From the IMG/VR virus record IMGVR_UViG_3300043410_000321, positions 1-48,237 of that record: 48,237 nucleotides of DNA; one strand, given 5' to 3'. Under the pieces are notes generated by a model, which had not been told where the DNA came from, searched no databases, and saw only the letters and a list, made by a program, of their open reading frames with translations. Source of the stretch: a virus. Numbering within the stretch: the stretch's first letter is position 1; each line of letters starts with the position of its first letter. Shown here piece after piece: positions 4,247 through 9,089 of this stretch. A program made the translations under genes and the position numbers.

Positions 4247-6031
4247 TTAATTAGCAAACCTATTGTTTGATAAACTCTTTGTAGCTCTAACTTGCTTATC
4301 GCTTGCATCACTGATGTTTTCAGTGTGATTTAGCATATTAGTCATAGTGGTATTTAACTTTTCCAATTGCGACTTAATGTCGTCTAGAGTAGTTGTTGTG
4401 GCAGGAGCAGCCCCAGTGGCTGCGGGTGCGCCACCAGTTGGTAACGCATTTAATCCAGAAGTGAGACCGCGGGCAGCAACCCCTCCAACTTCCCCAAGTC
4501 CTTTAAGAGCATCAGATCCAAAGAATGAAGGGCCAGTTGGTTGGCGCATTGCTGCTTCATTTATACCACCAGTAACTGGTGTAGGACTTAAACCAGATTG
4601 TACACCAGCTTTTAATGCAGCACTAGCCGCATCTGATGTTGTCATTTTTTCACCAGTTTTGGTTATTACTTTACCACCAAGTAATCCATCATTAAATCTC
4701 TTAAGAGATGGTCCAACATGTTCGTTAATTGGTTTAATAACATGATTCGAAAACGCTGCACCCACGTCATTTGATCTTGACTCCAAGTTTACTAGAGCTT
4801 TAGTACTTTCCGCACCTGGTGCAGTAACTGGTGCTTTCGCTTGCTTTAGTGCTTCTTCATGTACAAGTCTGCGTTTCTCAGCTTCATCCTTAACCCCTGC
4901 AAATCTACCTTCCTTTTCCATTTTCAAGTAAAGGGCTTGCTCAGTTTTGTACACGTTGGTATTATCAGTCATCGACTGTTGCATTGCCTTACTTGCAACG
5001 TTGGTTGAACTCATTGAGGCAATCGTTAACTTCTGAACGTTGTTCTGGTTTTCCATCATACCAGCTTGTGCTTTTGCATTCATCTCAGCAGCCTGAGCAT
5101 AATCACCGTTTCTAGCAGCTTGTGCTTGTGCGTATGTTGCTCTTGATTGCTCACCCAACACAGCCATTTGTGTTGCTGCTTTTTCGCTTTGTACTGTACC
5201 AGTAGCAAATACTTCCTTAAACACTTGTTCATCACCACGCAACTTTGCAGCTTCGTAGTTCTTCAAATATTCATCACGGATTTTTTTCTGCTCTTCTTCA
5301 GATTTGCCCATTGTTAACAAACGAAGTTTAGCTTCCACCTGCATGTCAGCTTGTGCTTCCTTCATTTGTTCCATTTGAGCTTTACGGCTAACACCAGTTA
5401 ACTTAGCCATTGCATCCATTTCGGTTGCTAATGCAGTAGCAGATGCAATTGCTTGCGCTCTTGACTGTTGGTCGTTAGCATCCATTGTTGCATAATTTGA
5501 AACAGTTAATGCTAATACATCATTTAAATCTTTGTTTGTGTAACCGAGTTCTTTTAATGACCCAGTTACGTTACTATCAAACATTTCCTTGCTAAGAAGC
5601 GCAAATGAGTCTGCGCCTTTGCCAACGGATGTTGTTAGTCCATTAAACTTGCCTGCGTTCTTTTCAACTAAACTACTGAACTCATTTAAATCTAAACGGG
5701 CACCTTTGGCAGCAGCTGACATTGATACAATGTCTCCACCAAATGCTGAACCTGTGCTGCTCAAATTACGCCAAGTCTCTAAGTTGGGTTTGATTACACT
5801 TTCAATATCTCTATAAACTGATGCAGTTGTTCTATAAACCGCAGAAGTAGAGTCAATAGCCGCAGTTAAGGGATTGAATTTGTTAGTTACTTCCGAAACG
5901 TTTTTTCCGAAATTCCCTAAGCCGCCGTCTCCGCCAGCACTTGAGCTTGCCTTATTCGAATAGCCACCCCCACTCTCTTTGAGTGCAGCAGCAAACGCTT
6001 CTTTTAAGTCTTCTTTTGTTAAGTCAGCCAT
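4247..6031 (-). CDS. Probable tail tape measure protein (gp29-like)
   Basis: 594 aa, very close to T4 gp29 (590 aa), the tail-length ruler. The protein is almost all helix, rich in Ala, Lys, Met and Gln, with no enzymatic motif. The section around residues 105-165 (FSSLVEKNAGKFNGL, GADSFALLSKEMF, LKELGYTNKDLNDVL) and the following MAKLTGVSRKAQMEQMKEAQ stretch look like tape-measure proteins of environmental T4-like phages (from memory). The middle, 215-330, is long coiled helix; the C-terminus has Gly/Ala/Pro linkers and a final short helix. It is near gp26 and its frameshifted partner, where a tape measure is expected. A late box (CATAAATA) sits 21 nt before the ATG. It could instead be another internal virion protein. 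Confidence 0.55.
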   Translation of the reverse strand: MADLTKEDLKEAFAAALKESGGGYSNKASSSAGGDGGLGNFGKNVSEVTNKFNPLTAAIDSTSAVYRTTASVYRDIESVIKPNLETWRNLSSTGSAFGGDIVSMSAAAKGARLDLNEFSSLVEKNAGKFNGLTTSVGKGADSFALLSKEMFDSNVTGSLKELGYTNKDLNDVLALTVSNYATMDANDQQSRAQAIASATALATEMDAMAKLTGVSRKAQMEQMKEAQADMQVEAKLRLLTMGKSEEEQKKIRDEYLKNYEAAKLRGDEQVFKEVFATGTVQSEKAATQMAVLGEQSRATYAQAQAARNGDYAQAAEMNAKAQAGMMENQNNVQKLTIASMSSTNVASKAMQQSMTDNTNVYKTEQALYLKMEKEGRFAGVKDEAEKRRLVHEEALKQAKAPVTAPGAESTKALVNLESRSNDVGAAFSNHVIKPINEHVGPSLKRFNDGLLGGKVITKTGEKMTTSDAASAALKAGVQSGLSPTPVTGGINEAAMRQPTGPSFFGSDALKGLGEVGGVAARGLTSGLNALPTGGAPAATGAAPATTTTLDDIKSQLEKLNTTMTNMLNHTENISDASDKQVRATKSLSNNRFAN

Positions 6032-6077: not shown

Positions 6078-7067
6078 TTAGTAGATGGAACCAGGCTTTC
6101 GTGGGATAGAAGCTAGTTTCTTAACGTTTGGATCGTTAGGGGTGTACTTAATTGCGTATTGTACTTTAGGATCCATATATGCATAATCGTTCAAATAACC
6201 CTGTGCGTCAGTAACGTCAATGCCGTTAATTACTACAGAATTCTTTGCACTACTTGCCACAGATAATGCATTTTGTAAATCAGCTTGCTTGTCTTTTGCT
6301 GCGGCCGCAGGATTTTTCTGCTGCTTGATTTTCTTCTCACTATCGTAGTAAGTGTCGCCCTTATTTTGCATAAAAGTGTTAATTACTGGGATTTCACTCA
6401 AGTACTTGCGTAACAAGTTCCAGCTTTCATCTGGGACTGTACCAACAGCAACTAATGCTCCGAAAAAGTTAGTTGCCATCCAATTTTCAAAAGTCTTAGT
6501 CATCATAAATGCTTGCAATGCAGTGAACACAGCTTGCTCAACAACTAAACCTGCAATAGCAGCTGGTCCAGTAAGAACACCGGAACCCAATGTCAACACA
6601 CTGAGCACTACTCTAGCAAGCAAAAGTACAAGTCTTGAGTTGGCAATCATGTGGATAAACCATGGAGTAAAGAACTGCACAGTCCAAAGACCAATGAATG
6701 CTTTTCTTGCTTTTTCAAATTGTTCTGGATTTGTTTTTCCAGTCATGTAATGCTTTTCAGCTTGGTCTAAGTTATAGTATAATTCCACACAAATAGCTAA
6801 TGAACCAAGGACACGCAAAACCCAAGACCAGTTACCAATCTTTTGTAGCAAGGATGTTTGTGCAGCAGCGCGGGCAGCAGCATTGCCATCATTTACAATA
6901 CTCTGGTATACTTTGATTAATTCAGCGTCTGCACCGGGAACTTTTTTATATGCAGCAAGAGCATCCTTTGCAGCTTTTGCAGTAGCAGCAGGATCACTCG
7001 CAGCGGCTGATTTGCCCCATGTAAGTGGATTGTACCAAACCTCGCATATAATTTCGTTGACTTTCAT
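6078..7067 (-). CDS. Membrane-active or hydrophobic virion protein, function unknown
   Basis: 330 aa from the ATG at 7067 (MKVNEIICEVWYNPLTWG). Three or four hydrophobic segments lie around residues 100-120, 145-165 and 175-220. An Ala/Lys-rich helix (about 25-80) comes before them and a soluble tail after. I do not recognise a family with certainty. Being next to the tape measure and gp26, it could be a hub, pilot or ejection protein that inserts into the host membrane. The frame is open upstream to an ATG at 7133, which would add a hydrophobic 22-residue N-terminus. I prefer 7067 because the MKVNEII start looks typical of these phages and a late box AATAAATA ends 5 nt before it. There is no Shine-Dalgarno; the upstream sequence is CTCCT. 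Confidence 0.65.
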   Translation of the reverse strand: MKVNEIICEVWYNPLTWGKSAAASDPAATAKAAKDALAAYKKVPGADAELIKVYQSIVNDGNAAARAAAQTSLLQKIGNWSWVLRVLGSLAICVELYYNLDQAEKHYMTGKTNPEQFEKARKAFIGLWTVQFFTPWFIHMIANSRLVLLLARVVLSVLTLGSGVLTGPAAIAGLVVEQAVFTALQAFMMTKTFENWMATNFFGALVAVGTVPDESWNLLRKYLSEIPVINTFMQNKGDTYYDSEKKIKQQKNPAAAAKDKQADLQNALSVASSAKNSVVINGIDVTDAQGYLNDYAYMDPKVQYAIKYTPNDPNVKKLASIPRKPGSIY

Positions 7068-7072
7068 AGGAG

Positions 7073-7080
7073 TATTTATT
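7073..7080 (-). promoter_or_regulatory. Late promoter box AATAAATA placed for a leaderless message
   Basis: AATAAATAC on the minus strand ending 5 nt before the ATG at 7067. With the T4 geometry (box -13 to -6) transcription would begin on the A of this ATG. The gene has no Shine-Dalgarno, which fits. The same arrangement occurs at 2495-2502. Confidence 0.5.
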
Positions 7081-7121
7081 CGTTTTAGTTGACTATAAAA
7101 TAAACCCACAAAAAGTGCGTA

Positions 7122-7129
7122 TATAAATA
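7122..7129 (+). promoter_or_regulatory. Late promoter box TATAAATA upstream of gp26
   Basis: An exact match to the T4 late promoter consensus. Predicted +1 is near 7135, giving an 18-nt leader with Shine-Dalgarno CGGAG before the ATG at 7153. With the minus-strand box at 7073-7080 it makes a compact divergent late promoter region. Confidence 0.85.
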
Positions 7130-7152
7130 CCATATATTGCTCGGAGTAGATA

Positions 7153-7968
7153 ATGAATCCATTACAAAAGTATTTTAGACAACCAAAAGTTTATATCAAA
7201 TTACCATCTGGCGGACTGTACAGTAAACCAGGTACGTTCTCTGGTGACGTAAGTCACATGCCAATTTACGGCATGACCGGAATGGATGAGATTATTCTTA
7301 AAACTCCAGACGCCCTGTTGAGTGGGGAAAGCACTGTTGCAGTAATGCAAAGCTGTTGCCCAGTTATTAAAGATCCATGGGAAGTTTCTGTAATCGACAT
7401 AATGATGGTCCTAACTGCTATTAGAATTGCAACCTTTGGCAATGAAATGACTATTGAGCATACTTGCTCTTGTGGTGCTGAAAACGAGTACGAAGTTGAT
7501 TTAAACAAGGTTATCGAGCATTACATGAAGTGTGTATACAATAACTCAGTTGATGTTGGTGAAATAACTATTAAATTGCAACCACTTACATATAAGCAAA
7601 GCACTGAATTTAATCTAAAGAACTTCCAATTACAACAACGTATGGCTCAAGCAGAAGTTCTCGAAGAAGTAGAACGACAACCAATTATCAATGAGTTGTT
7701 TAAAGAACTTGCTGATACTCAAACAGAGATTTTTAAGCAAGCCATTGAAAGTGTTGAGATGGGAAATCAAGTAGTTACTGAACGCAAGTATATCAATGAG
7801 TGGTTAGAGAATTGTGACAAAGCCGTATTCGATGCCATTAAGAAGCAAAACTTGATGAATAACAAAACTTGGGAAATTCCCAGATTCCCAGTTAAATGCG
7901 ATGCATGTGGAACTGAAGTAGCTCTGTCTGTTGACTTGGACGAATCTAATTTTTTCGTACAAGCCTAA
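7153..7968 (+). CDS. 26: Baseplate hub assembly protein gp26-like; zero-frame product of a probable frameshift gene
   Basis: 271 aa with the look of the T4 gp26 baseplate-hub family: KYFRQPKVYIKLPSGGLY at the start, PIYGMTGMDEIILKTPDALLSGE (about 37-59), and CCPVIKDPWEVSVIDIMMVLTAIRIATFG (68-96). Four cysteines, C105-x-C107 and C249-x2-C252, could bind zinc. T4 gp26 is 208 aa and acts in central hub assembly. The start has a CGGAG Shine-Dalgarno and a perfect late box upstream. Near the 3' end the codons AAT TTT TTC make a T TTT TTC slippery heptamer (7950-7956). It is followed by a stem that contains the stop codon, so some ribosomes probably continue in the -1 frame, giving a 345-aa fusion with the frame ending at 8189. 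Confidence 0.85.
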   Translation: MNPLQKYFRQPKVYIKLPSGGLYSKPGTFSGDVSHMPIYGMTGMDEIILKTPDALLSGESTVAVMQSCCPVIKDPWEVSVIDIMMVLTAIRIATFGNEMTIEHTCSCGAENEYEVDLNKVIEHYMKCVYNNSVDVGEITIKLQPLTYKQSTEFNLKNFQLQQRMAQAEVLEEVERQPIINELFKELADTQTEIFKQAIESVEMGNQVVTERKYINEWLENCDKAVFDAIKKQNLMNNKTWEIPRFPVKCDACGTEVALSVDLDESNFFVQA

Positions 7969-8013
7969 TTGGATTACCCGCTGATAAGATAGAAGAGCGA
8001 CTAGTTAGGCTTG
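7950..8013 (+). promoter_or_regulatory. Programmed -1 ribosomal frameshift signal: T TTT TTC plus downstream stem
   Basis: Slippery heptamer T-TTT-TTC at 7950-7956, in the zero-frame phase required (X XXY YYZ). After a 3-nt spacer, 7960-7972 (CAAGCCTAATTGG) pairs with 8001-8013 (CTAGTTAGGCTTG): nine Watson-Crick pairs, then U-G, U-A, G-U and G-C. The 28-nt loop holds a further 4-bp CGCT/AGCG helix (7979-7982 with 7996-7999). The gp26 stop TAA (7966-7968) lies inside the stem. Slippage by -1 continues exactly in the open frame to 8189, which has no ATG, GTG or TTG before its conserved-looking part. The 3-nt spacer is shorter than the usual 5-9 nt, the one unusual point. Confidence 0.8.
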
Positions 8014-8189
8014 AAAAACAAATTCGTGGTTTTAAACAAGAGCTATTCAAAATTAGCTGGTACATGCGTGGTGGTGTTACAGTTGATGATTTACTTCACT
8101 CGTACTCATTTCATGATCGTGAGATGATTTACGAAGTAATCAACGATAACATTAAAACTTCAGTTGAAGCTAAAATGCCATTGATTTAA
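7956..8189 (+). CDS. -1 frame extension of gp26 (gp51-position tail assembly partner)
   Basis: 77 codons in the -1 frame relative to gp26. The frame is closed upstream by TAA at 7945-7949 and contains no ATG, GTG or TTG until an internal ATG at 8064, which would remove half of it. The translation has a heptad-like helix (IEERLVRLEKQIRGFKQEL), then FKISWYMRGGVTVDDLLHSY, and ends VEAKMPLI. It looks conserved and is similar, from memory, to small proteins after gp26 in cyanophage-like genomes; T4 has gene 51 in this place. It is probably made only as a 345-aa gp26 fusion after slippage at 7950-7956. The alternative is initiation at the ATT that overlaps the gp26 stop (7968-7970), which has no ribosome site. 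By analogy with lambda G/GT the pair may chaperone tail assembly; that is inference. Confidence 0.75.
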   Translation, partial: RTSLIGLPADKIEERLVRLEKQIRGFKQELFKISWYMRGGVTVDDLLHSYSFHDREMIYEVINDNIKTSVEAKMPLI

Positions 8190-8477: not shown

Positions 8478-8663
8478 CCCTTTAAAATCTATTCAAACAA
8501 TCAAACCGCAGGATGTGTAGTTTCGCGATCGTGGTCCTGTTAAGGATACTGATTGAGTGCTCTTTTCAGCGAAGAGTCTTCGGTTCCCTGCGTCCCGTGG
8601 ACCAGGTTTCTTCTGTTCGCCACCCGATTTAAGCCGGTGGTAGCCATTTACTGATAATGAGCC
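8478..8663. other. Intergenic remainder, weak structure only
   Basis: 186 bp between the terminator and the 3' end of the minus-strand operon. It holds weaker stems: TCCT-gtta-AGGA (near 8533), CTCTT...AAGAG (near 8560), and CCACC...GGTGG (near 8620-8640), the last being the only candidate for ending the minus-strand operon, without a T-run. No ORF, tRNA or promoter is supported. Confidence 0.4.
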
Positions 8664-9089
8664 TTAAGATTTTAAAATGTGGGAGCCGTGTACTCTGACC
8701 TGAATATGACCATTGTAATAATCGTCTGATTCAAGTACTTTGCGAGCAAATTGTTCTCTTGCCTCTACGTATGAGCATTCTGCCTTAGATTTGCAGTAAT
8801 ATAAGATTTCCCTGGTGAAGTTGTCTGTGCCTAATGATTCAATATCTTTACTAAGAGCTGGGCTAGAGCCATAATACTCACGCCAATCCGAATCAATCTT
8901 GCCTCGAATTTTTTTCTTCTTCTTAGTGCCGTTTTTTAACTTAACTACTTTGTAGGTAGTTTTGCTGAATTTGGCTAACTTCTTGCCTATGTATTTTCGA
9001 CCAGTTTGGATGTTAGTGATGAGATAAACGAAGCCTACACAATCTTCTGGTAATTCTTCAATGATCTCGTTCTGATAAGTCCACGACAT
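8664..9089 (-). CDS. GIY-YIG-like nuclease domain protein
   Basis: 141 aa. The N-terminal third has the GIY-YIG pattern: GFVYLITN (about 19-26), then GRKYIGKK (30-37). A conserved Arg lies in DWREYYGSS and a candidate metal-binding Glu in YVEAREQF. Between them is a Lys-rich loop (KNGTKKKKK). The domain is standalone and lacks the DNA-recognition C-terminus of T4 Seg or I-Tev homing enzymes. Similar single-domain proteins occur in cyanophage-type genomes (from memory). It is the last gene of the gp55-gp47-gp46 operon, which suggests a role in DNA repair, recombination or host DNA breakdown rather than homing. Activity is inferred from motifs only. Confidence 0.65.
   Translation of the reverse strand: MSWTYQNEIIEELPEDCVGFVYLITNIQTGRKYIGKKLAKFSKTTYKVVKLKNGTKKKKKIRGKIDSDWREYYGSSPALSKDIESLGTDNFTREILYYCKSKAECSYVEAREQFARKVLESDDYYNGHIQVRVHGSHILKS

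Follow-up and report, generated by a model that had tools for sequence, protein, structure and literature searches.

A putative frameshifting tail assembly chaperone gene at the gp26 locus of an uncultured T4-like phage, and its relation to T4 genes 26 and 51

Many tailed phages obtain a short and a long form of a tail assembly chaperone through a ribosomal slip. In phage P2 the E/E′ pair arises in this way, by −1 frameshifting towards the 3′ end of the short chaperone gene. In phage lambda a −1 shift close to that end of the short gene likewise yields a longer second form (G/GT), and in a review of recoding from 2016 T4 was named as the exception to this conserved tail-gene frameshift (PMC5009743). 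The tail assembly chaperone genes of T4-like phages were identified by Vladimirov, Gautam and Davidson (Virology 2022;566:9–15); the phage Adele paper cites this work for poly-T slippery sites in the TAC-N genes of T4-like phages. The statement of a first-pass annotation of the present DNA that no gp26 frameshift had been described in T4-like phages is thus out of date. The central claim dates from 2022, and the locus described below is a well-supported new example of a known mechanism. To judge from papers that cite the 2022 work, what is new here are the lineages of uncultured and giant phages, the lack of a start in the second frame and the evidence for the stem; a literature search of partial coverage found no paper on a gp26 frameshift in giant phages.

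The window, that is, the whole stretch of DNA analysed, is an IMG/VR fragment of 48,237 bases containing one PF12322 gene. The product of this gene, gp26 (271 aa, start ATG 7153, stop TAA 7966–7968), gave 58.1 bits with PF12322 (T4_baseplate; curated cut-off 24.5, E 1.3e-15) and matched phrog_150 (baseplate hub) with E 2.8e-18. The AlphaFold model of the gp26 N-domain was confident (pLDDT 87.7), and its top fold matches in BFVD (top E about 1e-19) included baseplate hub assembly proteins of T4-like phages. A PDB fold search with the N-domain returned nothing below E 0.67, and a PDB profile search nothing below E 0.13. In addition, larger uncharacterised proteins (about 440–690 aa) of giant phages such as RSF1, phiEaH2 and Special G were found in BFVD to share part of the gp26 fold, and these may be the tail chaperones of those phages. 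From the sequence we infer, with a probability of about 0.93, that gp26 is a frameshifting tail assembly chaperone gene, encoding a short product (TAC-N) and, through a −1 frameshift, a long one (TAC-NC). Tail chaperones of the TAC type are normally absent from the finished virion, and the annotation of the CBB homologue of gp26 as a "structural protein" therefore counts against a chaperone. The features of the locus are collected in Table 1.

Table 1. Features of the gp26 frameshift region in the window, and stems at the corresponding place in other phages.
Feature	Position	Strand	Arm sequences (5′/3′)	Basis
gp26 / TAC-N ORF, short product	7153..7968	+		PF12322 and phrog_150 matches, AlphaFold/BFVD
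Slippery heptamer T TTT TTC, in phase	7950..7956	+		Phase check; T TTT TTN in 214/214 homologues
−1 extension (TAC-C), 77 aa + stop	7956..8189	+		Open −1 frame in all relatives; no start before 8064
Spacer from heptamer to stem, 3 nt	7957..7959	+		Folding; relatives usually 5–6 nt
Stem 5′ arm, holds gp26 stop codon	7960..7972	+		Folding
Stem 3′ arm	8001..8013	+		Folding; pairing in 21 relatives
Atu_ph07 stem			GGCTCTTTGT/ACAAAGAGCC	
L049 stem			AGGATCTTGAC/GTCAAGGTCCT	
L050 stem			GGCTAACGAAA/TTTCGTTAGCC	
L011 stem			AAACTGTTA/TAACAGTTT	
P-SSM2 stem			AGTATGGCTCA/TGAGTCATACT	

The 3′ end of gp26 reads TTT TTC GTA CAA GCC TAA. The slippery heptamer that the first-pass annotation had located there was confirmed, its zero-frame codons being TTT TTC, which is the correct phase for an X XXY YYZ site. 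As a bare motif the heptamer is no rarity: the window holds 12 matches against 17 expected. The evidence lies in its phase, position and conservation. Conservation was scored by script in 214 gp26 sequences (182 distinct once near-duplicates were removed) from uncultured relatives, the giant phages RaK2, CBB, PA5oct, Atu_ph07, Phosso and XaC1, cyanophages, a pelagiphage, KVP40, phiM12 and Cr30. A tblastn search gave 88 phage records at about 28–30% identity, giant phages among them, and close relatives were recovered from IMG/VR both for gp26 and for the −1 frame. Profiles of gp26 from cyanophages, a pelagiphage, phiM12, Cr30 and KVP40 brought in a further 157 loci in two scans of wider reach; both scans were keyed on peptide patterns in the N-terminal part of the protein and so did not select for the junction.

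An in-phase T TTT TTN was present near the gp26 stop in every homologue (214/214, or 182/182 distinct sequences). The site was always a codon ending in T followed by TTT TTY, save in two cases with TTT TTA; the codon preceding TTT kept T as its third base throughout, while the amino acid that it encodes varied (Ser, Asn, Asp, Ala, His, Arg, Gly). Of 155 Phe-Phe pairs elsewhere in these genes, only 5 showed this form. The homologues share kinship, so that probabilities multiplied across sequences do not constitute a p-value; a chance origin of the signal is ruled out by its phase and conservation. The two frames could also be parts of an intact long gene split by an indel, through a sequencing error or gene decay, since a one-base change would join them as well. 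This explanation, whose probability is negligible, is refuted by the relatives: all 214 homologues share the arrangement, and they derive from numerous isolates and metagenomes, finished genomes included.

The −1 frame is open between 7950 and 8189, and its earliest ATG, GTG or TTG is an ATG at 8064, within the WYMRGG core, in agreement with the earlier observation that it lacks a usable start. Joined to gp26 residues 1–268, its 77 residues would give a TAC-NC of 345 aa. From the slip site the −1 frame stays open for 53–77 codons in all 214 homologues, one of them being cut at 51 by the end of its contig. The cyanophages P-SSM2, S-PM2 and Syn9 and phage KVP40 resemble the window in having T TTT TTC in phase where gp26 ends and a −1 frame that carries the C-domain. 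They bear on a rival reading, in which the −1 frame is a small gene of its own (called "gp51" in cyanophage records) and is translated from its own or a translationally coupled start near the gp26 stop. An in-frame ATG lies near the junction in 69 of 73 cyanophage-type and 23 of 71 A2 representatives, an ATGA overlap occurs there in Atu_ph07 and Phosso, and a separate gene was drawn by the annotators of the P-SSM2, Syn9 and KVP40 records; in cyanophage-type loci the usual ATG explains this. In the window the second frame lacks the ATG that many cyanophage-type loci possess. In the wider group of the window (31 distinct sequences) 18 contain no ATG, GTG or TTG before the conserved core, nine contain GTG or TTG only and four an ATG, in each case lacking a Shine-Dalgarno-like site, so that a start with such a site was found in 0 of 31; taking the relatives together, nearly all starts are without one. 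A separate gene would, besides, leave the invariant in-phase heptamer and the ever-open −1 frame unexplained, and in T4 gp51 a complete TAC-N-like domain is joined to an extension of this kind. The start survey rejects a separate gene with its own start in the lineage of the window; for cyanophages such a gene is formally conceivable as a minor route. Overall we regard it as very improbable.

The C-domain of the window (77 aa) is longer than that of the cyanophage/KVP40 type (about 57–67 aa) and weakly similar to it in sequence; in hhalign the window-type extension scored a probability of 10% and E 0.003 against the gp51/cyanophage C-domain profile. The AlphaFold model of this domain was helical, with moderate confidence, and gave no confident fold match in BFVD. 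Its assignment as the counterpart of the other C-domains would follow from its position, its frame and the shared N-domain.

Downstream of the heptamer, folding confirmed the proposed stem, which begins after the 3-nt spacer and encloses the gp26 stop: nine Watson-Crick pairs are followed by U-G, U-A, G-U and G-C, and the energy of −19.8 kcal/mol (z −5.23) was equalled by none of 200 dinucleotide shuffles. Over 21 relatives the stem positions were paired at 83.5%, as compared with 15–48% when slid. A nucleotide comparison of relatives had been proposed as a check on the frameshift, with a conserved heptamer and compensatory stem changes as support; the heptamer was kept throughout, and the compensatory changes were modest in the nearest relatives. 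Among the nearest relatives two stem pairs change on both sides, and the covariation score exceeds that of shuffles whereas the number of two-sided changes does not; covariation is modest there because the stem core, GCCTAA/TTAGGC, is nearly invariant.

The comparison between clades is the stronger evidence for the stem. In most clades a stem lies at a similar place, unrelated in sequence and mostly still paired (Table 1), and in cyanophage-type loci one stem pair appears as T-A (29 sequences), G-C (nine) or A-T (nine). The fold was stronger than in codon-preserving controls with synonymous codons, with a mean z of −2.0 for the wider group of the window, −2.3 for the cyanophages and −1.3 for the A2 set. 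No simple stem, or at best a weak one, was found in RaK2, Syn9, HTVC008M and some of the A2 sequences. In the sample, the heptamer is universal and the simple stem is common, not universal. These recurring stems, typical of ribosomal frameshifting, also bear on transcriptional slippage, in which the run of six Ts would gain a U in some mRNAs and so produce the same fusion. The site is indeed a homopolymer run, and an extra U would join the frames; six Ts are, however, short for such slippage, and the phase fits X XXY YYZ. The chances of transcriptional slippage as the source of the fusion are accordingly put as very slight.

Frameshifting on the ribosome remains the preferred reading, and T4 shows how its products may be encoded by two genes. 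Vladimirov, Gautam and Davidson reportedly found frameshifting to be a conserved trait of several groups of T4-like phages, T4 itself relying on genes 26 and 51. The separate T4 genes had been presented in the first-pass annotation as a contrast to the present locus; instead, T4 gp26 and gp51 both match PF12322 and phrog_150 and are paralogues of one family, the two-gene form of the same pair, with gp26 as TAC-N and gp51 as TAC-NC. They share with the window gp26 the protein family and the logic of a short and a long form, but T4 gp26, unlike that of the window, has no slip site. The C-terminus of T4 gp51 is about 50 residues longer than that of gp26, gp51 being a complete TAC-N-like domain followed by a C-terminal extension, and the −1 extensions of cyanophages, phiM12 and Cr30 align with this C-terminus. 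In the P-SSM2, Syn9 and KVP40 records the extension is named gp51 or "baseplate hub assembly catalyst", and the KVP40 record itself likens its small gene to gp51. Two PF12322 genes, with a gp26 lacking the slip site, were found in T4, Ac42, Riv-10, PM2, leE and EcS1 (Straboviridae), and a single one in each of 13 named phages bearing the slip signal. In this distribution the slip signal and a second PF12322 gene replace one another, in keeping with the TAC-N/TAC-NC logic. Campylobacter phage NCTC12673 (L076–L079) has a gp26-like gene that lacks the heptamer, and the gp51-like frame behind it contains an internal TAA.

The pairs of lambda (G/GT) and P2 (E/E′) follow the same −1 slip logic as is proposed for the window gp26, with no sequence relation shown; in contrast to them, the window gp26 has no recognised tape measure neighbour and no PDB fold match for its N-domain. 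The genes around it comprise one for a T4-like portal and two unassigned ones on the other strand, and no tape measure gene adjoining gp26 could be identified in the window. The two minus-strand genes (4250–6031 and 6081–7133), located between gp26 and the portal gene, had no Pfam or PHROG match. Several giant phages carry a large "structural protein" gene at this place, that of RaK2 carrying a note of similarity to a tape measure protein. In the annotated stretch of T4, genes 26 and 51 likewise do not adjoin gene 29. On the other side of gp26, a Polynucleobacter-1 RNA (RF01718, 84 bits) was found at 8495–8645 on the minus strand. It was present in all eight IMG/VR loci of the window lineage searched, always downstream of gp26 and on the opposite strand, and seems to be an RNA conserved within this group of phages. 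A gene for a SegE-like GIY-YIG homing endonuclease (PF19835, E 6e-34) lies nearby at 8667–9089, also on the minus strand.

As regards the occurrence and rate of slippage, the ratio of the products and their partners, what we infer derives from the signal, its conservation, the open frame, the stems and the number of genes, all of them features of the sequence. Most ribosomes would end at the gp26 stop and release the 271-aa TAC-N. A minority would stall at the stem and slip one base back on U UUU UUC, Phe-tRNA re-pairing to UUU UUU, and would then continue to 8189, giving the 345-aa TAC-NC with its helical C-terminal domain. By analogy with lambda gpG and gpGT, both products would cover the tape measure protein as the tail is assembled, and the recruitment of tail-tube subunits would fall to the long one. 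The earlier suggestion that gp26 and the 345-aa fusion are the T4-like equivalent of the chaperone pair is strongly supported by comparison, through the heptamer and open frame that are universal in the sample, the recurring stems and the match of the cyanophage and KVP40 extensions to the gp51 C-terminus.

It seems fairly likely that a frameshifted single gp26 is ancestral in T4-like phages and the giant T4-like phages (RaK2, PA5oct, Atu_ph07 and the window lineage), and that a duplication gave rise to gp26 and gp51 of the T4-type Straboviridae, the C-terminal extension being lost from one copy and fixed in the other. On this reading gp51, long puzzling as a "hub assembly catalyst", would be the long tail chaperone. 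Many lineages, giant phages included, are added here to those in which gp26 bears the slip signal. What the records of cyanophages and KVP40 annotate as gp51 probably encodes the second half of a fusion protein and is not an independent gene, which affects the annotation of a large and abundant group of phages.
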